The position numbers were made by a program, and so were the translations under genes. Source: Chlamydiae bacterium CG10_big_fil_rev_8_21_14_0_10_42_34 (GTDB taxonomy: Bacteria > Chlamydiota > Chlamydiia > Chlamydiales > SM23-39). From it: DNA of 64,000 nt. The DNA is taken from the NCBI GenBank assembly GCA_002773795.1, contig PFAD01000008.1, forward strand, positions 457,247-521,246, given 5' to 3'. Within the stretch, counting starts at the first letter, position 1. Every line of letters begins with the position of its first letter. Of this stretch, positions 25,248 through 39,727 are shown piece after piece. Under the pieces are notes generated by a model. It was given only the letters and a program-made list of their open reading frames with translations. It was not told the origin of the DNA and did no database searches.

Positions 25248-26138
25248 TTAAATAACGTGATTACCCAGAACTTTACAAACTAACATGTACTGATTGAGGC
25301 GGCCTGAAAATCCTTGGTGAGTAACTATCGAGATCGACCGAAAACCTTCAATAAATCGTCTGATATATAAAGATGAGGAATAATCATGATATACATCATC
25401 ATGGTAACCTATAATTATGTATCCACCTGGTTTTACAATTTTGCTAAGAGCAGTTACAAAATCTTTGCGCTCATCATAGGCAATGTTCCGCAGAAATACT
25501 GTAGCTATATCGAATTGCACTTCGGGGTTTTTATCGTAGTATTCTTGCAAGGTTGCGTTAACAAGCTGAGAGTCTTTCATCCCTTTTTCTTTTGCAACCC
25601 CAAATTCTCCCTTGTCTGGATCGATACCTATTACTGTTGCTCCCGCAGCTTGCATAGCAAGTGTATTTTCGCAGCTCCTGCACCCAACGTCAATCACGCT
25701 TTTGCCTCCAAGGGAAATACGTAAGGACTTAGTTATGTCTGCTACAAGTTGCTTTGCTTCATTGTCTCTTGTTGTGAGCGGCCTGCGGGGAAGATCTGAA
25801 GCTTGTGAGATTCTATTCATCTCAAAGAGATGGGTGGGGCCTCTTTGTGCTAACGGCCTACAGGGAAAATCTGAAGCTTGTGAGATTCTATTTATCTCAA
25901 AGAGATGGGTGGGGCCTCTTTGTGCTAACGGCCTACAGGGAAAATCTGAAGCTGTAAAACGAGCGCCAAATTTAGAAAAATCTACCTTTTCATCCATAGC
26001 GGAGTTGGAGGCTCCACAACAACAGAATACTCGTTTTAAAAGGGCTGTTATTCTTGGGCAGGGAGGGCATCTTTTTGATGCGGTATCTTGTGGACATTCT
26101 GTTGTCCTAGGGGCAGAAGTTGAAGTGGTTGTAATCAT
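25248..26138 (-). CDS. Class I SAM-dependent methyltransferase with repeat-bearing N-terminus
   Basis: 296 residues. Residues 1-50 are Thr/Ser/Pro/Cys-rich (SKRCPPCPRITALLKR, FCCCGAS). Then come two full 25-residue repeats (ASDFPCRPLAQRGPTHLFE + I/M + NRISQ) and a partial third (ASDLPRRPLTTRD). The C-terminal domain is a methyltransferase: motif I SVIDVGCRSCENTLAMQAAG, acidic IGIDPDKGEF, and IVKPGGYIIIGYHDD. The substrate is unknown. The N-terminus is low-complexity and lacks a hydrophobic signal; export by the type III system is conceivable but unsupported. Confidence 0.65.
   Translation of the reverse strand: MITTTSTSAPRTTECPQDTASKRCPPCPRITALLKRVFCCCGASNSAMDEKVDFSKFGARFTASDFPCRPLAQRGPTHLFEINRISQASDFPCRPLAQRGPTHLFEMNRISQASDLPRRPLTTRDNEAKQLVADITKSLRISLGGKSVIDVGCRSCENTLAMQAAGATVIGIDPDKGEFGVAKEKGMKDSQLVNATLQEYYDKNPEVQFDIATVFLRNIAYDERKDFVTALSKIVKPGGYIIIGYHDDVYHDYSSSLYIRRFIEGFRSISIVTHQGFSGRLNQYMLVCKVLGNHVI
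25778..25953. repeat. 75-bp in-frame tandem repeat
   Basis: Units begin at about 25778 and 25853, with a partial third from 25928. The period is exactly 75 bases and the units are nearly identical, so each adds 25 codons to the methyltransferase encoded on the minus strand. The first unit differs at several bases (GGCCTGCGGGGAAGATC versus GGCCTACAGGGAAAATC). Confidence 0.93.
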
Positions 26139-26190
26139 ATTTCTCCTTATCGATAATAAAAAAGATGTCTAAAAACTTCCCGCTTTTTTT

Positions 26191-26391
26191 TCGGAAGAGG
26201 TAGGATCCCCTCTCGCCGATCTGCTTCGCAGCTCGTTGCTACCGGGGCGGCGATTTTTTTCGGGTTCAACCGAAAAAAATTCGAAAGGCTTTAGCCTTCG
26301 ATGCGGCTTCAGCTGCACCCCAAAGGGGCGAAGGTTCGCCTCGAACCGTAGTCAATCCTACCACGCAAGCCAAGCAGTTGGCTTGCTTCTT
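26191..26391. repeat. Left multi-hairpin repeat starting with tRNA-Ser 3'-end sequence
   Basis: Begins TCGGAAGAGGTAGGAT (26191-26206), identical to the 3' end of tRNA-Ser at 39598-39613, and closes with ATCCTACC (26356-26363) and TTCTTCCGA in inverted order. Between lie many short hairpins: GATCTGCTTCGCAGCTC, CGAAAGGCTTTAGCCTTCG, GCGGCTTCAGCTGC and GCCAAGCAGTTGGC. A second copy with the same plan lies at 39432-39563. Confidence 0.75.
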
Positions 26392-26434
26392 CCGAAACAA
26401 AAAAACCCAAGCTTTCGCTTGGGTTTGTTTCGGA
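26392..26434 (-). terminator. Left copy of tRNA-Ser terminator plus degenerate tRNA 3' end
   Basis: The 43 bases are identical to 39560-39602, the terminator of tRNA-Ser: AACCCAAGC / GCTTGGGTT hairpin with a T7 tract on the minus strand. Directly upstream on the minus strand (about 26435-26465) is GGTTCGAAT, a tRNA T-loop, at the same distance from the terminator as in the true tRNA-Ser, but the remaining acceptor sequence is scrambled. This looks like a decayed tRNA-Ser copy. Confidence 0.8.
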
Positions 26435-26477
26435 CGCGGTCGTCACCAATTCGAACCTCTGCCCTGCTCCCCGTCCA

Positions 26478-26634
26478 GATCAAAATCCCCTGCAATGAGG
26501 ACATACCAGTTTATCAAAGAATTTCACAAAAGATCAAGGAACTAAAAGCGCTTGGACTCACTAATCAGGAAATTGCCGACAGCATGAAAATTGGAAGAAA
26601 AACAGTGACTGCAGGGCTCTCAATTCAATTGTAA
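26478..26634 (+). pseudogene. C-terminal remnant of a recombinase/transposase-like protein
   Basis: The frame reads ...VYQRISQKIKELKALGLTNQ then EIADSMKIGRKTVTAGLSIQL and stop. This is a helix-turn-helix like the tail found on serine recombinases and some transposases. There is no start codon or ribosome site in front; the frame runs back into the repeat and terminator region. I read it as the tail of a lost integration gene at the island edge. Assignment is by motif shape only. Confidence 0.5.
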
Positions 26635-26715
26635 TTACAAACACAAAAAATAATCATTCAACTATATCAACAACAACTATATAATAGTAAATATAATTTT
26701 TTTAAGGACTTAAGT

Positions 26716-26874
26716 ATGAATCGCGGTGGTTTTTCTTGGAGACGATTTCTAGGCATTTCTGCTTTCAAGGCAAGAATCTCAAAACAGATCAGTATTCCAC
26801 TTACCAAATCTGGTAGACAAAGAAAGATAGGGGCTTTTATAGAAAGGCTTTTTCTTTCTTTTTTCTCACGATGA
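26716..26874 (+). CDS. Conserved small basic protein (52 aa), MNRGGFSW type
   Basis: Starts MNRGGFSWRRFLGISAFKAR and contains RISKQISIPLTKSGRQRKIG, ending in a hydrophobic tail. AAGGA lies 7 bases before ATG 26716. I recall similar short proteins (xRGGFSWxRLxGIxxAKxxIS) from plasmids and genomic islands in other phyla; function unknown. It converges on the coiled-coil gene ending at 26883, so it is at the distal end of the defence-like operon. Confidence 0.62.
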   Translation: MNRGGFSWRRFLGISAFKARISKQISIPLTKSGRQRKIGAFIERLFLSFFSR

Positions 26875-26882
26875 TGCTCGTT

Positions 26883-28268
26883 TTAGTCGTGCATCTTTTT
26901 CAGGTTAGACTCTTTTGATCTTCTCGAACGGTCGCTTGTAGTAGATGATTCTTGAACCTGCTTCAAAGGTTTGGCTCCAACGGGCAACGCCTTTTCAATA
27001 TGCAAAGATGTCCCGGACTTTTCCAGCAGAGACTGGAGACGAGAAAACTCTGAGCACCAAATTGTTTCCCTATCACGATCTTGAGATGCTTTAGAGGCAT
27101 GGGAGGACGCTTTGAAGGAAACAAGCTGAACTTGCACTCTTTCAGCATCCTCAACAGCTCCTAGTTCGACGCCGTACCCTTTCTCGTTAGGTTTTCTAAC
27201 AACTATGCGACCGTTTTCTGCCCAGGCCGTAGCCATATTTTCTCGAACCTCATACCCTAGTTCAGATAGCCCTTTTAAGATTGCGGTTCTTCTCGACTCC
27301 CCTGCCATAGCCTTCGTTTCTTCTTTAATCAACGCAATGCCCTTGTCGTGAAGCAGCTTGCTTGAAGAGGGGTCTTTAGCATCAATAGCCCTGGTGAGTA
27401 AGGCTTCAAGGTCTTTAGCTTGCTTGGATTTGAATCTGTGTAGCTCGCTACGAATTTCTCGCATAGATGTTATTGCTTTATCATTTGTTTTTCTTTCATT
27501 GGAGTGAGCAACCAAATCTAAAATGAGAGAGTCAGTTAGAAGAGAGCGCCTATTAGGCGATGATTCTAGGGAGATTGAAGTGATGCGATCCAGGAAGGAT
27601 TTGACCGACGATTTGTCTTCAGTGGCTTCTAGCTCTGCGATAAGCCTATCCAATCGATGATCTTTTTCTAAAGAGTTAGCATCCTCATGGTGGACTTTCC
27701 AATCTGAAAGAGTTTGGAGCTTCTCCCCTTCTGCCAGTTTTTTAGATAGCTCTTTTTGCAAAGGAGTCATGCTCTTTTTGTCTGTTGAGCTCATAGTGTA
27801 TTCGGCTAGTATTCGGCTTAAAGTCGCATTCATCGCAGCTAATTCTGTTTCAGTCGCAGTAAGTGATGATGATGCGATGTCTAAGATGGCTTCAGGGATT
27901 TGCCGTTGTATGGATTTAAATATCGAGATGAGGGTTTCTGCAGAATATTGCAGACGTCTTCTCATCGTGCGATCTTGCTCTGCCTTAGCAATAGCCTCGT
28001 CTCGGATTCGATTCATGTCAGATTGTAGGGATGCGATCTCGACAGAAGATTGCTTTTGTACGTCAAGAAACTGCTCTCGCTCGAACATTTTGATGACGGC
28101 AAAAAGCTTTTTTTCTACGGCTTTCTCTTCTTCTACTGTTAAGGCATCATGTCGAGTTGCATACTTACGCCATTGTTCGATTGCATCTTGAAGGGCATCG
28201 ATTCGGCCTCGGCAAATAGACATTACTTCTTGTTTGGTAACAACGCGTACTACTTTAGGGCCGCTCAT
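26883..28268 (-). CDS. Coiled-coil protein of unknown function (system component 4)
   Basis: 461 residues, strongly charged and mostly helical. It starts MSGPKVVRVVTKQEVMSIC, a beginning I remember from uncharacterised proteins in other bacteria. Long heptad-like stretches run from about residues 25-110 (VEEEKAVEKKLFAVIKMFER, then QKQSSVEIASLQSDMNRIRD) and again around 200-290. The region near 330-390 (LKGLSELGYEVRENMATAW, VVRKPNEKGYGVELG) looks like a small alpha/beta domain. There are no catalytic motifs. GGAGG upstream of ATG 28268 lies inside the end of the giant helicase gene, only 6 bases separate the genes, and it is last in the operon. Confidence 0.8.
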   Translation of the reverse strand: MSGPKVVRVVTKQEVMSICRGRIDALQDAIEQWRKYATRHDALTVEEEKAVEKKLFAVIKMFEREQFLDVQKQSSVEIASLQSDMNRIRDEAIAKAEQDRTMRRRLQYSAETLISIFKSIQRQIPEAILDIASSSLTATETELAAMNATLSRILAEYTMSSTDKKSMTPLQKELSKKLAEGEKLQTLSDWKVHHEDANSLEKDHRLDRLIAELEATEDKSSVKSFLDRITSISLESSPNRRSLLTDSLILDLVAHSNERKTNDKAITSMREIRSELHRFKSKQAKDLEALLTRAIDAKDPSSSKLLHDKGIALIKEETKAMAGESRRTAILKGLSELGYEVRENMATAWAENGRIVVRKPNEKGYGVELGAVEDAERVQVQLVSFKASSHASKASQDRDRETIWCSEFSRLQSLLEKSGTSLHIEKALPVGAKPLKQVQESSTTSDRSRRSKESNLKKMHD

Positions 28269-28274
28269 GCTCTT

Positions 28275-31200
28275 TTATCCTCCCGAACCAGATTGAATGG
28301 GCTCTCCTGACAGCATAACTCCTAAGGCTTCTTCGAGCACCTGTTTTAAACGTTCCATTTCTTCTTTTCTTTGGTGATACCAAGCATAGCTAGTTACTCT
28401 ATGGACATGCGGTATCTCCATGCGCAGGACTTTAGGACGCCAAACCTCACGGGCTCTTGCCGTCTCTAACACCGGGTGACAATGAGCGTCGCATTCAATG
28501 CCGATTCCAAATCGCTTTTTCTCTGGGTCTTCTATCACAAAATCTAATCCAAAAGCATCATTTTCTTTGATTGCAGATGGCTTTAGTCCAAGACCTTTGA
28601 TAAAGACAGCAACGGACCGGGTAAAACCATCCTTATCAAAATTCGAGCTTGTCTGAGAGGAAGAATTTTCAGAAGCCATGCTCTGAAGAGATTTCCGGGC
28701 AGCTTCTAAAGAACCATCACTGAGTTTAGACGCGTAGTCAAAGTAGGCTTGGAGATAGTCTCTTGCATTTTTAGGGCCCTGGTTTTTGGATAACGCATCG
28801 GAGATTTCGTTAATGGGTAGAGAAGTGATCAAAATGATTTTCGTTCTCGCTCTCGTGATAGCTACATTCAGTCGGCGCTCTCCACCAGTTTGACTGAGAA
28901 GACCAAATTGTCTTCGGAAAGTCCCCTCTTCATCTCTTCCAAAGGTCGAGCTGAAAATGATCACATCTCTTTCATCGCCTTGAACGTTTTCAACGTTCTT
29001 AACGAAAAAGCTCATATCTTCTCCGCCTTGCTGGCGTTCTCGTTCTTGGCCCAAGGCTTGTCGGAAAGAGGCATCTTGATCGGCTCGTTCGGCTAGAACG
29101 TCTTCTATCAGGTCCGCTTGTTTAGCATTGAAGGTTACGACGCCAATACTGGGCCTTTCTGGTGAAGACCAACGTTCAGCTAATAAATCGACGACCCTTT
29201 CGGCTTCTTCTCTATTGGTTTGGTTTGCATAGACTCCGTCGACCCTTATCACTTCAATAGGACGAATGTTCTGAATTACATTCTCTGGATGTCTGACCGG
29301 GACGCTTAGTTTATTTCCATAAAAGGCTGCGTTTGAAAAGGCGATGAGTTCGCGATACTTTGATCGATAGTGGATTTGTAGCATGGATCTCGGTAAAACG
29401 GTTTTTCCAAGGGTTAGCAAATCCGAACAATCTTTAATTTCTCTTCTGTTCCAGGTGTCTTCTAAAGCTTCTCTTTCTGCATCGCTGATCATTTCGTCCA
29501 AGTCTTCATCCGTGGAAGAGGACTCCTCGTCGTCGCCGATTCGCTTCATGAAAACGCTTGTAGGAGGCATCTGCTTCTCGTCCCCGCTGATGACAGTCCG
29601 TTTTGCCCGGTAGAGAGTAGGAAGAGCATTTTCTATAGGAATTTGGCTTGCCTCGTCGAAAATGATCACATCAAACATACCGGCTCTTAAGGGAAGCAGT
29701 TGGCTGGCTGTATCTGGGTTCATTAGCCAAACTGGACGCAGACGTCCAAGTCCCATATCCCAGCCACGTTCAATGACCTCTCGGAGACGGCGAGCTCTCG
29801 GACCCCTGAGACGAGTGACATCCTCCCAATCATCGGGAACCCTGACTCTCTCTATATCCATATTGAAAGCTAAGAACTTCTGATTCAATGTCCTCATTTT
29901 TGTATTCGATTCAGCTAGGGTTTGGATTTTTCGCGAAAGCTCTTTCTGAGCCAGGCGCAAAATCGGAAAGCTCAGCTCTATTCGGTCTTTCCAGGCAAGA
30001 CGCGCTTCACGAGCGATAATCCGTTGGATCACTTTTTCTAATTCTTCTGAAGGGTATTCTCTCAATTCTTTGTCTTTTTCTCTGAGAGTGGCAAAGATTT
30101 TTAAAACCTCTGAGGAAAGGTTAGGCGCTTGCAAGCGGAATTCTTGATAAGCAGGCAGAGAGTGTAATGCATCAACCAAGAGTTGTAGATCGTAGAGATT
30201 GGATCGATTGTTCCGAATATTGGATTGGCAAAGTTCAAACAACTCTTCAGAGAAAAATGGAGAGAGTCTATCTAAGCCATCGACACTCTGGGACCTAGCC
30301 TGATGACGTTCAAAGGCTTTTCCGTATCGAGAAATGAGATCTTCGTAGGCGGGTCCGCCTGTTTTTGCTATTGGCTCGACTTCTTCTTGTCGAGGGCATG
30401 CATGAAGGGCTTGGATACCTTTTTGTGCTAAGTATAGCTCCCCTATCATACAATCAGCCATCAAACGCAACTCTTTCAAAAATAATGGCGTTGAGGCTTG
30501 TCTTTCATAGTAGAGTAACTCAGAAAGTTCTAAGGCTGTTTCTCGGAGAGGCCGCTGCTGTAGTTCCAGAGTAGCTGCGCTCTGAAGGTGTTCTATTCTT
30601 TCGTGGGTGGGTTTTTCCTCGAGATCAGTCAGGACTTTTTGAATCCATTTGCAATGCAGATAACGCACAGGATTGAGGCAGCTTAGAAAAGAGGCGGGAG
30701 CGGTTGCGTTCTTTGCCCATGAGAGCCATTTTCTTATAGTCGAGATAGGCAATTGGATAATATGAGCAGACAGCTCGGAATCGTGATCTTTTAAGTTTAA
30801 AGCATTTAAAGATGCTTTGAGCTCTTCGATTCGCTGGATGAGATCGGTTCCTTTGGACTGTCCATTTGGGGGGAATAATTGGAACCAAGATGAAATATTC
30901 TTCCAATCTACTTTGCTAAAGAGAGACTCGTGTGATTTGATCCACTCTTGGTGAGGAGATGGGTCTTCTACGTCGAAGGTGGTTGTCGACTGCCTGACCG
31001 ATTCATCTCTCTTTTTCTCTTTATCAATGAAGGCAAAAAGAGAGCTGATGAATTCGTTGACAAAAGCAGAATCTGGAGAGAAAACCTTGAGCTTTTCTAA
31101 TGGATTTCCTTCAAAAGAGGATTCGAGCCATATCCCGGAGATCGGAGAGCAGATTTCTTCGATCACTGTAAGCTGTTTTTGATCGAGCTCTTTTAAAAGC

Positions 31201-34200
31201 CTTCTTAAGGCAGGGACGTCAATCAGTTTGATGTCTTGATCTTCTAGATCGATTAATTGACCTAGGAGGATTCGATAGCTTAGCCCCGTCGCTTCGTCAG
31301 TTGTGTGGATCGCTGCATGATGCTTGTCGATTTCCTTTTCCAATTTTTCGATTTTCTCAGCGAGCTCTTCACGTTCACGTTCTACGTTTTCCGCGCGGTA
31401 AGCTCTCGTAGCTTGCACGATTCCTTCGACCTGAGTCCGGAGATTTTGGATGACAGAGGTTCGATCTTTATTCACATGTGTGATGTAGAAGTAACGGTCT
31501 TTGAGCCCTTCTGCATCGAGCCTTTTTGAGAGAACTTCTAGGGCTGCAGACTTTTGGCAGACAACGAGCACTGTTTGATTGCGTCCGATGCAATCCCCAA
31601 TGATATTCACGATCGTTTGACTTTTCCCTGTACCTGGAGGCCCTTCAATGAGCAAGCCAGGTGCTTGTCGTGCGCGAAAAACAGCCTTTTCTTGAGAAGG
31701 ATCACTTTCCATCGTGAAAAAACGATCTTTTTCTGGAATCGAAGGCAGAGAGGGTGTGACAATAGGATCTTTATTCACTCGCAGCGCTGTTTCTAATCCC
31801 GTTCCCACCAGAGACTCTTTCCTCATTTGACGCAAGTCTTCCCCTATGGCTTGTCCCATAAATTCAGCGTGGAAGAGGACTGCTGAGCAAACCACTTGTC
31901 TAGTGCCCGCTTTCGCTTTGTAGCTACTATCCGGCAGGGCGCATAAAGATCGTTCTCTTGGATCTGCAAGTGATCCGAAGGCATCGATCACATCTCCAAT
32001 ACGGATTGCTGATCTTCCTAATAGCTCTTTGGCGGTTTCTGACCATCTCTTTGCCTCTTCAAGACCGATTAGCCCCGTAAGAGCCGGATTTACACGCACC
32101 TCTTCTCTATCGCGGTCAAAAAGAATGGAGATTCGATCTCTATTCTCCATGTCAATTTTTATGGGCCAGAGCAAAATCGGGGCAATTCTTGGCTTCTTTT
32201 CTGTGATCTCAGCCCGACTATCTTTCATGACAAGGAATGGGAATCCAAGGTAAAGGCTATCGATACCTGTATCTCTCTTGTAAGTTCTTGCATGACTGAC
32301 TAGATGGCGTAACTTTCTCTCAAGGTCAGAGTCATCCTCGAACGCTGCTCGATCGATTCCTACAGGAGCTTCTACTCTGCTGATCAGGTGTTCTAAAATA
32401 GAGGTGGCTGTTGGTTTTTTCCCGGCGACTTCTGCTAGATCGACTCGCGAGCTCGATTTCCCAATCAGCATTCTGACAAGAGGGCCTCTTTGTGCCAGAC
32501 TTGCTGTTCTCTTTTCAAAAAACTCAAGAATCGTAGAGACATATTGCTGCCGAGGAGGCTCTTGCCATGATTCTTTGGGGATCGATAGAAGAACTAAGGC
32601 GCGAGGTAATGAAATTCTGCGCTCAATTCTAAAGTCATTGGCCCATTCATCTACACGGGCGATTCCGCATCGCGAGTAGTTCGCCGTCCTCTCTTCGATT
32701 TCTCGATAAAGATCTCTTCTTGAGACCTCAAACCATTCTCTTGCAGCCGTATCTTCATAGCTAGAGACCTCTGCTTGAGCAGCAACCTCTTTAGCCTGAT
32801 TTAGGATTTGCTCGAGTGGTTGATATTGTTGAATCGCTGCCCCTAAAAGAACCATCAGTTCTTCGTCGGTGATCTTCTGACGATCCATCAATGAGTTTAG
32901 TCCCCCATGATCCGATCCTGGATAGAGGCGGCGATGCATACCCCATTGTCTCTCTAGGTTTGGACGTGAAGAGGCGAGAGCGAGAAGCCTGAAGCTTTCC
33001 TCATTGAGTTCAATTTCGAGAGCTTTAGCTCTGTCCCGAGCTTTTGTCTCGCGCTCATGAAGATCGCAAAGATGTCTCTCCCTATTCATTTGACGGAGAT
33101 GCCCTATCAGAGGACCAATGATGAGCTCGTAGCCTTGAACGGGGTTTTGTAGCATCCACGATGAGGTAACGATCTCCCCTTGGTAGATCAGCGGTAAACT
33201 CGGATTCATCCACATCAAGGCTAAAGCATGCCTGAAGTCTTCATGAAGCGAGTCTATGGAAGTAGCAAGACGAACTCCAGCTATGATCTTGGGCTCCGCT
33301 TTCCTGTCTTCTAACCAAGTAGCTATGACACCTCGCAAGAGAAGCTCTTTTGCTTGTTCCCAGTTCGAAGCTTCGGCTGCTATTAAGGCATATGCTTTAG
33401 GGCAGGTGTAGGACAAATCTTTGAATTCTAAAGCAGGCCCGCTTTTAGTCTCTTCGTTCTTTGTATCAGAAGGGGCCTCTACCGACTCTCCTGCTAACCA
33501 ACTTTGTACCTGAGCCCACTGCCAGCGCTGATCGGGATCTTTAGCTAGTAAACCTCGCAGCAAAAGATGAATGGATGGATCTATCCCTTTAGGGAGAGAA
33601 ATTCCTCTGGTTACTATATGGATCCGGAATGCTTTTTCATTAATGCCTTCAAAACACGAACCATTTGTGAGGAGCTGTAGAATGATCATACCTAAGCTCC
33701 ACCAATCAGAAGCCACACTAATGCCTCCGGCAATCACTTCTGGCGCTGTGTAACGAGCTGAAATCGGCTGTTTGACTGTATCAAGATCAAAAGTAGAAAG
33801 ACGACTATAGTGAAAGCCGCTCAGCATCACGTTCAGATTCTCTCGATTTAAGATGAAGATATTTTCAGGGCGAAGATTTCCATGTCGTAAACCGTTCTCG
33901 GATAGAGAAGACAAAACTCTTCCCATCGACTTCGCAATTTGTTGAATAATCGGTAGATCTATAGAGGCAGATTCAAGATCAAGGATAGGGGGATCGGAGA
34001 TAAGATCTGTAACTTCATATCGTCTGCATTCCCATATTCCATGTGCTAAAAGCTCTGGAACGTAGTCTTTTGGCAAACGTTTTAAAATTTCATAAATACC
34101 AGGCTCAGGATGGGCATCAGGAAGATACAAAGTCAGGGTTGCTCTATGCCCGTGTCTTTCAACGAGGAACCTTTCAAAAGGTTCATTAGTAGTTTCCAGT

Positions 34201-34511
34201 CGATCAATGACAGTCCATCCATCGATGACTGTTTCCTTGTCTTGGGGTGATGGCTCTTGATTGATGGGGGTGGGTTCTGTCGCGACAGTGGCCCCACATT
34301 TAAAGCACATCTCATCATCGGGGTCTAAAGGATGGCCATTAGAGCAAAGGCGTGTATGTGGTGTTAAATTTGGGGTTTCAAGGGTTGGGTCAGATTGACC
34401 TGGAAGTCTCAGGGGTTCTTGTGTGAGATCCCAAGAACAGTTTCCGCAGAGCACCTCTTCAGAAGAGCGCTCTTCTCTACATCCTGGGCACTTACGGACA
34501 TGGAGTGTCAT
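28275..34511 (-). CDS. Giant zinc ribbon-pseudokinase-DUF4011-SF1 helicase-Vsr-like nuclease (system component 3)
   Basis: 2078 residues. Domains in order: zinc ribbons (C8, C11, C22, C25; then C56, H60, C69, C72); a kinase fold at about 95-345 with catalytic residues lost (HGNLRPEN at 210-217 for HRDxKxxN; SGF at 231-233 for DFG; no beta-3 Lys) but TAPEV and SDWWSLG kept; a helical region; a DUF4011-like part near 690-950. The SF1 helicase follows with GPPGTGKSQT near 957, FDEASQ near 1618, VQGDERDVIIFSS, and LNVAITRART near 1880. The C-terminal Vsr/MTES_1575-like nuclease has GLDFVIEDPEKKRFGIGIEC near 1985-2005. DUF4011-helicase-Vsr is the order of the antiviral Hhe protein. It overlaps the radical-SAM gene by 20 bases. 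Confidence 0.9.
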   Translation of the reverse strand: MTLHVRKCPGCREERSSEEVLCGNCSWDLTQEPLRLPGQSDPTLETPNLTPHTRLCSNGHPLDPDDEMCFKCGATVATEPTPINQEPSPQDKETVIDGWTVIDRLETTNEPFERFLVERHGHRATLTLYLPDAHPEPGIYEILKRLPKDYVPELLAHGIWECRRYEVTDLISDPPILDLESASIDLPIIQQIAKSMGRVLSSLSENGLRHGNLRPENIFILNRENLNVMLSGFHYSRLSTFDLDTVKQPISARYTAPEVIAGGISVASDWWSLGMIILQLLTNGSCFEGINEKAFRIHIVTRGISLPKGIDPSIHLLLRGLLAKDPDQRWQWAQVQSWLAGESVEAPSDTKNEETKSGPALEFKDLSYTCPKAYALIAAEASNWEQAKELLLRGVIATWLEDRKAEPKIIAGVRLATSIDSLHEDFRHALALMWMNPSLPLIYQGEIVTSSWMLQNPVQGYELIIGPLIGHLRQMNRERHLCDLHERETKARDRAKALEIELNEESFRLLALASSRPNLERQWGMHRRLYPGSDHGGLNSLMDRQKITDEELMVLLGAAIQQYQPLEQILNQAKEVAAQAEVSSYEDTAAREWFEVSRRDLYREIEERTANYSRCGIARVDEWANDFRIERRISLPRALVLLSIPKESWQEPPRQQYVSTILEFFEKRTASLAQRGPLVRMLIGKSSSRVDLAEVAGKKPTATSILEHLISRVEAPVGIDRAAFEDDSDLERKLRHLVSHARTYKRDTGIDSLYLGFPFLVMKDSRAEITEKKPRIAPILLWPIKIDMENRDRISILFDRDREEVRVNPALTGLIGLEEAKRWSETAKELLGRSAIRIGDVIDAFGSLADPRERSLCALPDSSYKAKAGTRQVVCSAVLFHAEFMGQAIGEDLRQMRKESLVGTGLETALRVNKDPIVTPSLPSIPEKDRFFTMESDPSQEKAVFRARQAPGLLIEGPPGTGKSQTIVNIIGDCIGRNQTVLVVCQKSAALEVLSKRLDAEGLKDRYFYITHVNKDRTSVIQNLRTQVEGIVQATRAYRAENVEREREELAEKIEKLEKEIDKHHAAIHTTDEATGLSYRILLGQLIDLEDQDIKLIDVPALRRLLKELDQKQLTVIEEICSPISGIWLESSFEGNPLEKLKVFSPDSAFVNEFISSLFAFIDKEKKRDESVRQSTTTFDVEDPSPHQEWIKSHESLFSKVDWKNISSWFQLFPPNGQSKGTDLIQRIEELKASLNALNLKDHDSELSAHIIQLPISTIRKWLSWAKNATAPASFLSCLNPVRYLHCKWIQKVLTDLEEKPTHERIEHLQSAATLELQQRPLRETALELSELLYYERQASTPLFLKELRLMADCMIGELYLAQKGIQALHACPRQEEVEPIAKTGGPAYEDLISRYGKAFERHQARSQSVDGLDRLSPFFSEELFELCQSNIRNNRSNLYDLQLLVDALHSLPAYQEFRLQAPNLSSEVLKIFATLREKDKELREYPSEELEKVIQRIIAREARLAWKDRIELSFPILRLAQKELSRKIQTLAESNTKMRTLNQKFLAFNMDIERVRVPDDWEDVTRLRGPRARRLREVIERGWDMGLGRLRPVWLMNPDTASQLLPLRAGMFDVIIFDEASQIPIENALPTLYRAKRTVISGDEKQMPPTSVFMKRIGDDEESSSTDEDLDEMISDAEREALEDTWNRREIKDCSDLLTLGKTVLPRSMLQIHYRSKYRELIAFSNAAFYGNKLSVPVRHPENVIQNIRPIEVIRVDGVYANQTNREEAERVVDLLAERWSSPERPSIGVVTFNAKQADLIEDVLAERADQDASFRQALGQERERQQGGEDMSFFVKNVENVQGDERDVIIFSSTFGRDEEGTFRRQFGLLSQTGGERRLNVAITRARTKIILITSLPINEISDALSKNQGPKNARDYLQAYFDYASKLSDGSLEAARKSLQSMASENSSSQTSSNFDKDGFTRSVAVFIKGLGLKPSAIKENDAFGLDFVIEDPEKKRFGIGIECDAHCHPVLETARAREVWRPKVLRMEIPHVHRVTSYAWYHQRKEEMERLKQVLEEALGVMLSGEPIQSGSGG

Positions 34512-35163
34512 AGGTCTTCCCCCTGGTAGAGCGTTCGTCCTGTGTGGTTACTGCCAGATGGCCCTCTTTTGCTAAGATAATCTTCAGGCGCCGCATATCA
34601 TCGCGCCTAGGAACTCCTGCAAGCCAGATGGTTCCGGCTTCATCAAACATGATATCAAAAGTCTTATCAGATGATTTAAGGGCTCGCTCGAAAGGACGGA
34701 ATCGCGTTTCTCCTAGAGGAGTAAGAAAATGAAGTCGTTGGTTATCGCTCCCGCGCAAAGCAAGAGTTTGGGCGGCATTTTCATCGTATGGATCTGAGAT
34801 CAAGGCATCGATTGTCCCCTGACATTTTTCAAGGGTGAGGGCAATCTTTTCGAAAGGGTGTCCGCTATAGACGAGAATGTCGATACTCGTTGTGGAACGG
34901 ATTTGGGCCAGGAGATGAATAAGAGCTTCTGGTTGATCGAAGGGTTCCCCTCCAGAAATCGTGATTCCTTCTGCTTCCTGTAACCAAGGGGAGATTACAT
35001 CCATAATCTCATCGACAGATACCCCGCCTTTTCCAGTTCCCCATGTGTCGGCTGAGACACATCCCTTACAACGAATGGAGCATCCTTGAAACCAGATTCC
35101 AATACGGCGACCTGGCCCCAATGTTGTCACGGGGAAGTGGATTCTGGAAAGGTAAAGCATCAT
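34492..35163 (-). CDS. Small radical-SAM protein, NrdG-like 4Fe-4S type (system component 2)
   Basis: 223 residues. WFQGCSIRCKGC gives the cluster ligands C28, C32 and C35, and GITISGGEPFDQPEALIHLL is the SAM-binding motif. The fold resembles NrdG/PflA activating enzymes, yet no glycyl-radical protein is in the operon; the nrdD set at 15-17 kb has its own NrdG. The C-terminal part (RLHFLTPLGETRFRPFERAL, IWLAGVPRRDDMRRL) is of the kind seen in '4Fe-4S single cluster' proteins beside AAA genes. The start overlaps the AAA stop as ATGA. The likely role is radical modification of an operon partner or a nucleic acid; unproved. Confidence 0.85.
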   Translation of the reverse strand: MMLYLSRIHFPVTTLGPGRRIGIWFQGCSIRCKGCVSADTWGTGKGGVSVDEIMDVISPWLQEAEGITISGGEPFDQPEALIHLLAQIRSTTSIDILVYSGHPFEKIALTLEKCQGTIDALISDPYDENAAQTLALRGSDNQRLHFLTPLGETRFRPFERALKSSDKTFDIMFDEAGTIWLAGVPRRDDMRRLKIILAKEGHLAVTTQDERSTRGKTYDTPCP

Positions 35164-37019
35164 AATGTCGCACTCTCCGTGGCTAGCCTGAGCTTCGTGA
35201 TCTTTCCAGTTTCAACGGAACGAATAGAAAGTCGACTGCCCGCTTCAATATTCTCATCGAAAAGGGCTCGAGAAAGGGGATTGACCAGATGGGTTTCAAT
35301 TTTATTTCGGATTCCCCTTCCTCCGTTCGATAAATCTTTTAAGCAGAGATCTCTCAATGTTTGCAGGGCCAATGGATCAATCGAGATATCAATGTTTTGA
35401 GATCCTTTCAGATCTGATAGTACGCTATCTACCATACTATTGAAGATTTGTTCAGCTATGTTTTCTCGGATGAAGTCGAATACAATGATGTTGTCTCCGA
35501 TTCGGTTGAGAATTTCAGGACGGTTGAGGGCCAACTTAAAGTGTTTCTCAATCTCCTCGCGGATCCGTTTCTGGATGGTTTCAAATTGATTCTCTGTAGA
35601 AACAGTCGCTTTTCTCTCTCCTGTGATATCGGTTTGATAGATTCCTAGGTTTGAGGTGAAGACGATGAACGCCTCTGTAAAATAGACCCGCTCTCCCCTG
35701 CCTGATGTCAATACGCCGTCATCTAAAATCTGGAGGAATTTATCGAGGATTCTTGGGTGGGCTTTCTCAATTTCGTCAAAGAGGACTACGCTAAAAGGCT
35801 TCTCTCGGATGGCATTGGTTAATTCACCTCCCATATCATAGCCTACATATCCTGGAGGCGCTCCGATCAACCGTTGGTCTGAATGCTCGGCGCTGAATTC
35901 CGACATGTCAAAGCGGATGTAAGCGCTTTCATCGCCAAACAGAAGGCTCGTAATCGACTTAGCTAGCTCTGTCTTCCCGACGCCGGTAGGTCCTGCCAAG
36001 AATGCAACGCCTCGAGGGCGACCACCACGGCGAGGAGCCCCCACTCCCGTTACTGCGCGCTTAATGATATCAAGCATGTGAGCAACTGCATGATCTTGTC
36101 CCTTGACCCTTTCCATAATGAAATTCTGTCCGTCGCGGATCTTTCTTCGGTCGAGCTTTTGCCAGGGATCTTCAGAAACCCCCACTTTATAGCGACGCAC
36201 AGCTTCTCCAATCTTGGCATATCCTAATTTCTCTTCGCGGCAAAGTTGGGCAATTAACATGAGATCGACGAGAAGGAGTCCTTCGGTATTGTCTACAAAG
36301 CTCTGAACGGCAGTATCTTTTAGCTGAGTAGAAGCTTCCTTTGCTCCATCAAGGGATTGAATTAAGGAAGTCGCAAGAACTCGGCGCATCTGATGATCAG
36401 GATTTGGAATGGATATATGGCGAACTTTAGAATTATCGAGAGTAAACCAGGCTGGCATGTCCCCTTCTTTTTCTACTATCCATAGGACGGTGTTGAAAAA
36501 AGGTTTGGACGGTGTCCCGTAAGCGCGAACACGCGTTTCTTGGGAACGAATAAGTGCCCGCGTGAACAGACGATGCTCGGTATCGTTGAGATCATTTTGG
36601 TGAATGATAAGCCGGGATGCAAAATCGACGATTAAAGCTATGGGCTCCCCTTTCCATGTAATGAGTTGTTCTAAAACTGTCTCGAAAAGATCTAAACCAG
36701 CTGGAGCACACCCATTGACTGGCTGAAGACCCAATTGCTTCATGATGTTCTCAGCAGCTTCATGGCTTGAATGAGTGGACATTGGATCGATTATTTTAAA
36801 TCCATTGATGAAGTCATAACTCAGAACGTGAGAATAACCATATTGTCGAAGCTCAGCGTTTAAGCAGGAAGTAAGAGAACGTACAACAGCTCCGCTCGAT
36901 TTATCTTCTGTTTGGAGGTCACGCACATTCCCTGAAAGAACAAACTGACTTTTCAGTGGCAAAAACCGAAGAAGATCACAAAGCCATTTTGATCTAGTAA
37001 CCACAAAGTCTTTTATCAT
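35160..37019 (-). CDS. ClpB/ClpA-type AAA+ ATPase (system component 1)
   Basis: 619 residues. The N-terminal half starts with QFVLSGNVRDLQ and has a Walker B-like ALIVDFASRL but no recognisable Walker A, so the first AAA module is degenerate. The C-terminal module is a complete Clp-type D2: GPTGVGKTELAKS near 341, pore loop GAPPGYVGYDMGGEL near 390, Walker B VVLFDEIEKAHP near 414, sensor VFTSNLG near 456, arginine finger LNRPEILNRI near 499, then the D2 small domain. The housekeeping ClpB/ClpC N-domain and M-domain are missing. It is the promoter-proximal gene of the four-gene operon. A substrate-threading or remodelling role is inferred. Confidence 0.88.
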   Translation of the reverse strand: MIKDFVVTRSKWLCDLLRFLPLKSQFVLSGNVRDLQTEDKSSGAVVRSLTSCLNAELRQYGYSHVLSYDFINGFKIIDPMSTHSSHEAAENIMKQLGLQPVNGCAPAGLDLFETVLEQLITWKGEPIALIVDFASRLIIHQNDLNDTEHRLFTRALIRSQETRVRAYGTPSKPFFNTVLWIVEKEGDMPAWFTLDNSKVRHISIPNPDHQMRRVLATSLIQSLDGAKEASTQLKDTAVQSFVDNTEGLLLVDLMLIAQLCREEKLGYAKIGEAVRRYKVGVSEDPWQKLDRRKIRDGQNFIMERVKGQDHAVAHMLDIIKRAVTGVGAPRRGGRPRGVAFLAGPTGVGKTELAKSITSLLFGDESAYIRFDMSEFSAEHSDQRLIGAPPGYVGYDMGGELTNAIREKPFSVVLFDEIEKAHPRILDKFLQILDDGVLTSGRGERVYFTEAFIVFTSNLGIYQTDITGERKATVSTENQFETIQKRIREEIEKHFKLALNRPEILNRIGDNIIVFDFIRENIAEQIFNSMVDSVLSDLKGSQNIDISIDPLALQTLRDLCLKDLSNGGRGIRNKIETHLVNPLSRALFDENIEAGSRLSIRSVETGKITKLRLATESATL

Positions 37020-37133
37020 TCACAATTCCCATTTAAAGCAGATTATCAAGCACTTTTAAACTACACAAATATACAACTTTACATCATAATAATCCAGAAA
37101 CAGAACAACAATATATTTATTTTACCTCAAAAT

Positions 37134-38660
37134 ATGAATAAATATTTAATTATCACCCCTTCTCATTTTTACAAATTAAACAAGAACCCTTTATGGATCT
37201 GGTATGATCTCTTTGGCGATCAGTCAAAAAAAGATTCTTTATCAGAATTTGCTCTCAAAAATATAGAGGATGGGAATCTTCACGAAAAAGAGTACATTTC
37301 AAAAGTTCAGGTGGCAGAGATCAGAGAAACAGATCCAACTAAAGGGGTGGAAGAAACCCTAAGTCTTATGAGGAAAGGAGCTCCCCTGATTTATCAAGGA
37401 TGGCTGGAGAAAAGAATTGATAACGTGATTTATCGTGGCAGACCCGACCTTTTAGAAAAACGGCCCGGTAAATCTATTTTTGGGGACTGGATCTATACTC
37501 CTATTGATATAAAATCCTCCTCAACAGTGAAAGCTACTCATGAACAGCAGCTTGCCTTTTACAGCATGATACTGCACTCAATCCAGGGTCATTTTCCCTA
37601 CAAAACTGCCGTCGTCAATAGAAATTTTGAAACTATTGAGGTAATCCTAGATGAAAAAATCCTACAACGAACCCAAAGAGATATAGATGAAATCTTATCA
37701 ATTATGAGAGGGAAAAAGCCCCCTACTCATATTTCAGGTTCTGCTAAAGAAACGCCTTGGTATAGCGAATGCCTGAGAGAGGCAGAAAACCTCAGAGATA
37801 TTTCATTAATCTACAAAATCAGAAAAGATACTGCTGAAGCTCTTCGCAACCACGGCATTGATACGCTTGAAAAGCTAGCGCTCCAAGATATAAATGCTCT
37901 TCCTAAAATTCCAGGCGCTACTATCGACACACTCAAAAAAGCTAAAATTCAAGCACAATCCCTCGTAGAACAAAAGCCTATTTTCATCGGCGCACCTGAG
38001 CCTATTCAAGAAACCGACCTTAAGCTCTATTTTGATATAGAAGGAGTCAAGAGCCTCGGAGTGGAGTACCTATTTGGATTTTGGGTAGTTGGTGACCCCG
38101 AAAGGAACTATGCCAGAGACGGAGAGGTTGTGTGGTCGCAAAAAGATAAGGGAAAATACTTTCTCTATTTTTTAGCTGAAGCTCCAGAGTCAGAATCAAT
38201 CATGTGGAACAAGTTTCTGAATTGGCTTCAATGCCTGCCCATTGATTACAAGGTTTATCATTATGCCAAATATGAAAAAGAAACCCTTACAAAACTCTCA
38301 AAAAAATATAAAGGATCAGAAAATCTTAGCAGATTTCAGGAAAAACTTGTCGATTTAGAAAAGAACGTGGCTAAATCAGTTGTTTTTCCCCTATATTTTT
38401 ACTCTCTTAAAGATATTGCAAAATCACCTTTTATCAACTTTAATTGGCGCCATGAAAAAGCAGGAGGAAGCCAGAGTATTTTCTGGTATGAACAGTGGCT
38501 AGAAGCAAAAGATCAGCTCATCCTTCAGGATATCATTGATTATAACGAAGATGATGTGAGAGCTACAGAATGCCTGCATATTTGGATGAATAAAGCTCGC
38601 CTCTTCCCCAGAGCGCACCATGGATGGAGCTTAGTCTCGTATAGAAAATGTTGGGATTGA
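37134..38660 (+). CDS. TM0106-family RecB-like nuclease with RNase H-like domain
   Basis: 508 residues. The N-terminal half has the PD-(D/E)XK pattern of RecB-like nucleases (RGRPDLLEKR with YTPIDIKSSS, then HEQQLAFYSMIL). A helix-hairpin-helix-like stretch LEKLALQDINALPKIPG follows. The C-terminal half is DEDD exonuclease-like, with LYFDIEG near 300, and IIDYNEDDVRATECLHIW. It is transcribed divergently from the AAA gene across a 114-base AT-rich gap. The last 30 bases overlap the DUF2971 gene. Confidence 0.85.
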   Translation: MNKYLIITPSHFYKLNKNPLWIWYDLFGDQSKKDSLSEFALKNIEDGNLHEKEYISKVQVAEIRETDPTKGVEETLSLMRKGAPLIYQGWLEKRIDNVIYRGRPDLLEKRPGKSIFGDWIYTPIDIKSSSTVKATHEQQLAFYSMILHSIQGHFPYKTAVVNRNFETIEVILDEKILQRTQRDIDEILSIMRGKKPPTHISGSAKETPWYSECLREAENLRDISLIYKIRKDTAEALRNHGIDTLEKLALQDINALPKIPGATIDTLKKAKIQAQSLVEQKPIFIGAPEPIQETDLKLYFDIEGVKSLGVEYLFGFWVVGDPERNYARDGEVVWSQKDKGKYFLYFLAEAPESESIMWNKFLNWLQCLPIDYKVYHYAKYEKETLTKLSKKYKGSENLSRFQEKLVDLEKNVAKSVVFPLYFYSLKDIAKSPFINFNWRHEKAGGSQSIFWYEQWLEAKDQLILQDIIDYNEDDVRATECLHIWMNKARLFPRAHHGWSLVSYRKCWD

Positions 38661-39362
38661 TTTTCGCAACGATGAATTTTGTACAGTTATCTCTGGAAGA
38701 TATTTTTGTACTAAAAGAAAGACCTGTTCAAAAAACATTGGGTCCGAGAATGGGGAGACTCTGATACTTTCAATTAATGCACGAAGATCCACTGGAATGG
38801 AGCGATCTTGTTGAGATGGAGGGTTATTTCCTACTCCCAACTTATCATACCAACGCAGAGCTCGAATTTCCTCTTCATAAGCAAAACTGATATCCTTTAC
38901 AAAATAGCGCAAAAATTCAATTCCACCCACACACCTATTATCTCTTTTGTGATCAACATATGTTACCTTCCCAATAAATACAGACTCGCTTACTTTAGCA
39001 AAAGATTGACAAAGCCTTCCAAAAGTAGACTGGATAACTATTCCTTTTCCCTTTTCAGCATAAGCCCTCCACATAGCTTGAGACTCATCAGGGCTTTGGT
39101 GCCAGCAGCTCATGCCAGAATAAAAGCCTTTTTTACTTGTGTAAGCAAGAACTTGTTCTTTCATTTTTTGATCTTTATACGCTTCTACTTCATCAAAGTC
39201 CTTTTGAAACCAGGCTCCCTCCAAAGGATCTTCAAATTGTTCGGGAAGAGCAAAATACAAAGACTTATAGTGAAGAAGAGAGAGAAGCTTCTCCAGAGAT
39301 AAATATCTCCAAATAATGGTATTATCAGATACTGGTTGAATATAGTCGTGAGGCTCATACAT
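38631..39362 (-). CDS. DUF2971 protein
   Basis: 243 residues. WRYLSLEKLLSLLHYKSLYF, FEDPLEGAW, SCWHQSPDESQAMWRAYA and the later DISFAYEEEIRAL are the conserved blocks of DUF2971. The family is common in accessory and defence regions and often found next to nucleases; its biochemical role is unknown to me. AAGGA 9 bases before ATG 39362 supports the start. It converges with the TM0106-like gene by 30 bases, and the right-hand hairpin repeat follows. Confidence 0.82.
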   Translation of the reverse strand: MYEPHDYIQPVSDNTIIWRYLSLEKLLSLLHYKSLYFALPEQFEDPLEGAWFQKDFDEVEAYKDQKMKEQVLAYTSKKGFYSGMSCWHQSPDESQAMWRAYAEKGKGIVIQSTFGRLCQSFAKVSESVFIGKVTYVDHKRDNRCVGGIEFLRYFVKDISFAYEEEIRALRWYDKLGVGNNPPSQQDRSIPVDLRALIESIRVSPFSDPMFFEQVFLLVQKYLPEITVQNSSLRKSIPTFSIRD

Positions 39363-39431
39363 GATTTTTTTCCTTACTTATTACTATCTTGAAGAAAATA
39401 ACAAAGCTCAACTTACATCAGTTTTTTGTTG

Positions 39432-39563
39432 TCGGAAGAGGTAGGATGGGCTTTCGGCCCGCGACGGGCCTCCGGGGCTTATAGCCCTGATTCACCTGAC
39501 GGTGAATCCCCTTCTCGCTTTCGCTCGAAACGAACCCAAGGGTTCTCATCCTACCCCTCCCGA
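39432..39563. repeat. Right multi-hairpin repeat starting with tRNA-Ser 3'-end sequence
   Basis: Opens with TCGGAAGAGGTAGGAT (39432-39447), the same 16 bases as at 26191 and at the tRNA-Ser 3' end, and closes with ATCCTACCCCTCCCG in inverted order. Internal hairpins include GGGCTTTCGGCCC, TTCACCTGACGGTGAA and GAACCCAAGGGTTC. It abuts the tRNA-Ser terminator. Confidence 0.75.
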
Positions 39564-39602
39564 AACAAAAAAACCCAAGCTTTCGCTTGGGTTTGTTTCG
39601 GA
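39560..39602 (-). terminator. tRNA-Ser terminator
   Basis: On the minus strand AACCCAAGC-GAAA-GCTTGGGTT is followed by a T7 tract; it begins at the tRNA 3' end. The identical 43 bases occur at 26392-26434. Confidence 0.9.
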
Positions 39603-39683
39603 AGAGGTAGGATTCGAACCCACGGACCCGTGAAGGTCTCCTGTTTTCAAGACAGGTGCAATCGGCCACTCTGCCACTCTTCC
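39599..39683 (-). tRNA. tRNA-Ser (UGA)
   Basis: Read on the minus strand, the acceptor GGAAGAG pairs with CTCTTCC with discriminator G. The anticodon loop is CTTGAAA with anticodon TGA, inside the stem CCTGT/ACAGG. A long variable arm follows, and the T-loop GGGTTCGAATCC is intact. It reads UCA serine codons. Its 3' end is the apparent integration site of the 13-kb island. pheS lies upstream in the same direction. Confidence 0.96.
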
Positions 39684-39727
39684 ATAAAAAAGACAGCACT
39701 AATAATAAACGTTATACAACGTTTTTC

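Follow-up and report, generated by a model that had tools for sequence, protein, structure and literature searches.

In a 64,000-nucleotide stretch of contig PFAD01000008.1 from Chlamydiae bacterium CG10_big_fil_rev_8_21_14_0_10_42_34 (hereafter, the window), we find an operon of four genes, encoding an AAA+ remodeller (gene 1), a radical-SAM protein (gene 2), a giant helicase-nuclease (gene 3) and a coiled-coil protein (gene 4). With a probability of roughly 0.6, these genes make up a horizontally mobile system for recognising foreign nucleic acid and breaking it down, in which the AAA+ and radical-SAM proteins regulate the helicase-nuclease; a role against phages or plasmids would be the most likely. 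We count for this reading the constant gene order, the intact motifs, the patchy spread, the mobility and some defence-related neighbours, and we count for a role in defence the kinship of the effector domains to antiphage families.

The operon and its conservation

The four reading frames are joined by a 4-base overlap of genes 1 and 2 (35160-35163), a 20-base overlap of genes 2 and 3 (34492-34511) and a 6-base gap between genes 3 and 4 (28269-28274). An earlier, sequence-only reading of this DNA had given frames, strand, overlaps and gap exactly to the base, and had proposed a single operon; the comparison of related loci bears this out and shows the operon to be conserved, with co-inherited parts. 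Queries with the full-length AAA+ protein matched mostly the D2 domains of ordinary ClpB and ClpC, and relatives were recruited instead with the N-terminus of gene 1, which is distinct from ordinary ClpB; this retrieved 169 relatives in genome_contigs, 80 of which were kept and form, together with four plasmid loci, a set of 84. Eighty of these 84 loci, a coherent clade, contain the AAA+, radical-SAM, giant and coiled-coil genes in that order and on one strand, indicating that the association is not due to chance. The exceptions are two operons at contig ends (L102 and L107), a decayed copy (L043) and a locus without the radical-SAM gene (L090). Protein divergences are correlated for all gene pairs (Spearman 0.67-0.89). 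A decayed copy was also seen in Rhizobium sp. C104 (L026), where the radical-SAM gene and the start of the helicase are broken, and in Microvirga (L199) an ISKra4 transposase gene abuts a truncated helicase, with type I R and SIR2 genes adjoining.

The loci come from records of Pseudomonas, Legionella, Burkholderia, Rhizobium, Methylobacterium, Enterobacterales, Acidobacteria and Chlamydiota, and their occurrence is patchy: the operon was found in 4 of the 234 genomes of the phylum sample, and in none of the other sampled genomes from the genus or family of the window. Likewise, gene 4 was detected at convincing scores in 3 of 369 Gammaproteobacteria, and in all three its contig also carries gene 1. 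The operon was absent from phage records, viral contigs gave a single match, and a distant DNA search found no ortholog in E. coli genomes.

Profile and fold searches, together with a motif census of the relatives, indicate that, judged from the residues of gene 1, its first ring is dead and its second, of the ClpB type (D2), is live. Its Pfam and NCBIfam matches are to ClpB-type AAA_2 and ClpB_D2-small, and D2 contains Walker A (GPTGVGKTE), Walker B (LFDEIEK) and pore-loop (GYVGY) motifs, of which both Walker motifs and the pore tyrosine are invariant or nearly so. Residues ~1-285 show an AAA+-like fold (Foldseek matches to Vps4, Rubisco activase and FtsH, probability 1.00 but TM-scores of only ~0.4-0.5), although G-N-x-x-D-L occupies the position of the P-loop, which is lost. 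By eye, we saw no IGF/IGL motif for ClpP docking. Gene 2 matches Fer4_12/radical-SAM and is NrdG-like, with intact CX3CX2C and GGEP motifs and all three cysteines kept in 82 of 82 sequences; the other three operon proteins gave no Pfam match to a glycyl-radical enzyme family.

Gene 3 comprises two zinc ribbons (a weak Pfam match, with conserved cysteines), a kinase-type domain (~95-340; Pfam Pkinase), a helical region, a partial DUF4011 (726-812; 83 of 158 positions, above the cut-off), a superfamily 1 (SF1) helicase of the UPF1-like type (935-1900) and an MTES_1575/Vsr-type nuclease (1963-2058), with clear matches to AAA_11/AAA_12 and MTES_1575. Its helicase motifs GPPGTGKSQT (Walker A) and DEASQ (motif II) are invariant among relatives, and the nuclease residues D1990, E2006, D2008 and H2012 are near invariant (kept in 76-80 of 80); SMUBP-2 and Sen1 are the closest solved relatives of the helicase. 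The kinase domain lacks the beta3 lysine and the DFG aspartate in every aligned relative and keeps the structural APE and DWW motifs; from these residues we classify it as a conserved pseudokinase, in agreement with the sequence-only reading. The protein of gene 4 has the N-terminus MSGPKVV, a long helical coiled coil and a conserved C-terminal alpha/beta domain (~326-440); it retrieved no significant Pfam match, and the fold search found no relative among solved structures. A GYxV pattern in gene 4 was considered as a glycyl-radical-like motif and dropped, because the pattern is too common.

A mobile island and its surroundings

The island extends beyond the operon: perfect 43-bp direct repeats delimit about 13.2 kb (26392-39602) at a tRNA-Ser gene and enclose the operon plus genes for an RNase_H_2/Cas4-like nuclease and a DUF2971 protein (Table 1). 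These repeats and the shorter copies (16-18 bp) of the tRNA 3' end around the operon identify a tRNA-linked island; for the 16-mer, a first-order model predicts 2.5e-5 occurrences in the window. Beyond the tRNA lie pheS, rplT and infC, and nucleotide homology to a genome of the same genus spans infC-rplT-pheS and the entire tRNA, ending at the tRNA 3' end (39598). No integrase was recognised in the island of the window; in a close relative (L036) the operon is flanked by two phage-type integrases. The 508-amino-acid RNase_H_2 protein also adjoins the operon in L036 (71% identity) and has no counterpart at the other loci checked, suggesting that it is accessory.

Table 1. Coordinates, in the window, of the operon genes and of the parts of the island
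Feature	Position	Strand	Basis
Gene 1, AAA+ remodeller, 619 aa	35160..37019	-	Pfam/NCBIfam profiles, fold search, motif census
Gene 2, NrdG/PFL-activase-like radical-SAM protein, 223 aa	34492..35163	-	profiles, motif census
Gene 3, giant helicase-nuclease, 2078 aa	28275..34511	-	Pfam/NCBIfam/PADLOC profiles, motif census
Gene 4, coiled-coil protein, 461 aa	26883..28268	-	translation, fold search
Island cargo, 508 aa, RNase_H_2 plus borderline Cas4-like region; divergent from gene 1	37134..38660	+	
Island cargo, DUF2971 protein, 243 aa	38631..39362	-	
tRNA-Ser(TGA), likely integration site	39598..39684	-	nucleotide homology to same-genus genome ends at tRNA 3' end
43-bp direct repeat, tRNA-proximal copy; contains the terminator-like hairpin of the tRNA	39560..39602	.	
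43-bp direct repeat, distal copy, 100% identical; distal island boundary	26392..26434	.	
Second copy of tRNA 3' end, 18 bp exact; 16 bp of these also at 39432-39447	26189..26206	.	
aa, amino acids.

The same tRNA-Ser site carries other cargo in a genome of the same genus (G001, L192:14265-16623), consisting of a RhuM-like protein and duplicated small genes, and the site therefore looks like an insertion hotspot in the genus. Just outside the island, a gene at 25248-26138 encodes a methyltransferase-like protein; within it, 25779-25953 is a tandem repeat with a period of 75 bp and 96% identity. Elsewhere, an open frame of 24,142 amino acids, a giant protein, was reported in a genome of the same order (G039:C43).

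Chlamydial families with pheS identities of 60-64% share gene 1 at 83-96% identity, and a genome with 44% identity in pheS has 84% in gene 1; gene 1 being far closer than pheS, we conclude that the operon moves horizontally. The operon is also found on conjugative plasmids and megaplasmids. Base composition was dropped as evidence of transfer, because that of the operon matches its surroundings.

P. aeruginosa PA7 contains the complete operon ~23 kb from infC-rplT-pheS, and here the operon is the border of hotspot cDHS1. Between the two, inside cDHS1, are genes for a C5 methyltransferase, Vsr, a DndH-like helicase and an HSP90-type ATPase. Johnson et al. (2023; PMC10250203) used the right border of cDHS1 as a marker and left it unexplained; the PA7 operon appears to match the border genes that they reported as core in P. 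aeruginosa. Both PA7 (L141/L195/L100, ~2.516-2.550 Mb) and the window carry infC-rplT-pheS on the other side, as does no other locus checked; because the orientation differs, this is probably a coincidence of insertion site. In other genomes, PADLOC searches of up to 7.5 kb downstream of 20 operons gave one match each to the BilA-D, PDC-S06, PDC-M40A, type II endonuclease, methyltransferase, IetA and DrmC families, and upstream of operons there were matches to IetA and PDC-S15. Locus L041 has type I R and DncV-like cyclase genes as neighbours.

Proposed function and alternative readings

As we picture it, gene 3 would be the effector, with an SF1 helicase that loads onto DNA or RNA and a Vsr-type nuclease that makes the cut, while its zinc ribbons and dead kinase would provide a non-catalytic docking platform and the coiled coil of gene 4 a scaffold or adaptor. 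Gene 1, with a threading loop and no sign of a protease partner, might spend ATP on remodelling or disassembling the complex, either to switch it on at the target or to recycle it. Gene 2, being NrdG-like, may place a radical-dependent change on a partner protein. That the four proteins form a complex, which of them gene 2 would modify and at what moment gene 1 would act are all part of this conjecture.

Several points weigh against a defence system. The 84 loci were picked by gene 1 similarity, so that the figure of 80 is no proof that every gene 1 relative has the set, and in the literature we found no phage assay of the four genes; moreover, the substrate of the radical-SAM enzyme is only proposed. 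The sequence-only reading had suggested looking for known defence genes nearby, and these do occur at some loci (PA7, L041, Microvirga and those with Bil families), but 20 control regions also gave PADLOC matches, fewer of them system-specific (Dsr2, ThsA-like, LmuA-like and UvrD-type helicases), and this descriptive comparison, without a statistical test, is suggestive. Lastly, the P. aeruginosa copy is reported from every isolate, unlike most defence systems (PMC10250203), which keeps alive a role in genome maintenance or chemical stress. The AAA+ protein would then strip stalled protein-nucleic-acid complexes, the helicase-nuclease process the lesion and the radical-SAM enzyme repair or sense redox, with mobility reflecting niche adaptation and not conflict. 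A ClpB-type D2 without a ClpP loop suits such a remodeller, as do SMUBP-2 and Sen1 as the nearest solved helicases; yet the very patchy distribution elsewhere, the tRNA-linked island, the plasmids, the transfer between families and the antiphage kinship of the effector domains make us regard it as unlikely, though the likeliest of the rivals.

The location on megaplasmids and tRNA islands, and at the fixed edge of a hotspot into which other elements insert, would also suit a competition or stability module of a mobile element, aimed at incoming plasmids or rival elements instead of phages. We consider this improbable, given that many genome_contigs matches are on large, chromosomal-looking contigs and that no toxin-antitoxin or partition gene is consistently adjacent. 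Very improbable, in turn, is an ordinary single-gene defence protein of the Hhe or ProA type with hitch-hiking passengers: gene 3 does match the PADLOC profiles Hhe and PDC-S37, but it misses the curated Hhe and ProA cut-offs, and the four-gene order is kept in records of Chlamydiota, Pseudomonadota and Acidobacteria, where divergence is correlated and the motifs are intact. We prefer a system of four proteins against foreign nucleic acid. Should this hold, helicase-nuclease systems gain a widespread multi-gene member that includes two components seldom met in defence, an unfoldase-type AAA+ motor and a radical-SAM enzyme of the protein-modifying type, and the fixed, so far unexplained genes at the edge of a major P. 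aeruginosa defence hotspot are accounted for.

Relatives and known systems

Distant relatives of gene 1 retain an NrdG-like neighbour, whereas the remaining partners differ. Four proteobacterial plasmid clusters (L029, L030, L032 and L033) consist of five genes, for an SF1 helicase, a PIN protein, a coiled-coil-like protein, a related AAA+ (33-36% identity) and a radical-SAM protein; the PIN-domain protein stands where our operon has the Vsr nuclease, and L029 shows no detected DUF4011 or kinase. We regard them as a candidate sister system; one of them is on an NDM-1 Acinetobacter plasmid. Plasmid L028 of Aristaeella lactis shares with the window a related AAA+ (39%), a radical-SAM protein (36%) and a DUF4011-helicase-nuclease, but it adds FHA and PP2C-type phosphatase genes and two kinases, with the kinase separate from the helicase and keeping its lysine, HKD and DFG; it is likely an uncharacterised phospho-signalling relative, and the fused dead kinase of gene 3 may descend from such an active signalling kinase. 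In gammaproteobacterium L142, FHA, radical-SAM, helicase and AAA+ genes accompany a protein with the C-terminal domain of gene 4. Profile comparison did not support homology between gene 4 and its counterparts by position in the clusters of the PIN type and of Aristaeella; among the counterparts compared, only the G457 protein shares this domain (E 4e-10).

The AAA+ and radical-SAM proteins are, we infer, the common core of a wider family. More tentatively, and with much less confidence than we give to the four-gene system, this core (dead D1, ClpB-type D2, NrdG-like enzyme) could define a broad class of immune systems with exchangeable effectors, be it a helicase-Vsr nuclease, a helicase with a PIN nuclease or kinase/FHA/phosphatase sets; the radical-SAM enzyme would modify one of the proteins and the unfoldase would gate the nuclease, a protein-radical-controlled immunity.

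Compared with characterised families, gene 1 matches only the D2 part of ClpB/Hsp100 (residues 265-602; 259.6 bits versus a cut-off of 1232); a full ClpB has ClpN, two active AAA+ rings and an M-domain, whereas the D1 of gene 1 is a P-loop-less AAA+ fold. Gene 2 shares the CX3CX2C core of NrdG and other glycyl-radical activases but scores below the equivalog level (82 versus 126 bits). The sequence-only reading had also invoked Mokosh (MkoA/MkoB/MkoC), which resembles gene 3 in placing a UPF1-like helicase beside a kinase-type domain, and the MkoA profile matches the helicase (167 bits). This comparison is weak, however, because Mokosh has an active Ser/Thr kinase and the kinase of gene 3 is dead, and because none of the four proteins matched a phospholipase D (PLD)-family nuclease in Pfam or PADLOC; the operon of the window has, besides, AAA+ and radical-SAM genes as extras.

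Hhe (NF042953, PADLOC Hhe) consists of one gene and is not known to have a pseudokinase or any AAA+, radical-SAM or coiled-coil partner. It combines DUF4011, SF1 helicase and Vsr-type nuclease in one chain, as gene 3 does, and differs in standing alone where our operon has three conserved partner genes. The Hhe-like character proposed from sequence alone holds as far as the helicase-nuclease is related to Hhe, but gene 3 reaches 315.3 bits against a curated cut-off of 2000. ProA (NCBIfam NF058533) fits better, at 535 bits (534.8) over DUF4011, helicase and nuclease (residues 727-2063), although this is also below its cut-off (1500) and leaves the first 726 residues, with zinc ribbons, pseudokinase and helical region, unaligned. 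The PADLOC candidate PDC-S37 scores 518 bits. The literature searched gave no paper that names ProA as antiphage or mentions AAA+ or radical-SAM partners of it, and none with the four-gene set, which a 2012 comparative-genomics paper on Ter systems might nevertheless describe. As the sequence-only reading had anticipated, no described system in PADLOC, NCBIfam or these papers has exactly this set, and homologues of the four genes occur together. With gene 3 below the curated cut-offs and the set unnamed in these sources, the operon would represent an uncatalogued, AAA+/radical-SAM-regulated variant of helicase-nuclease defence, whose gene 3 is kin to Hhe, ProA and PDC-S37.

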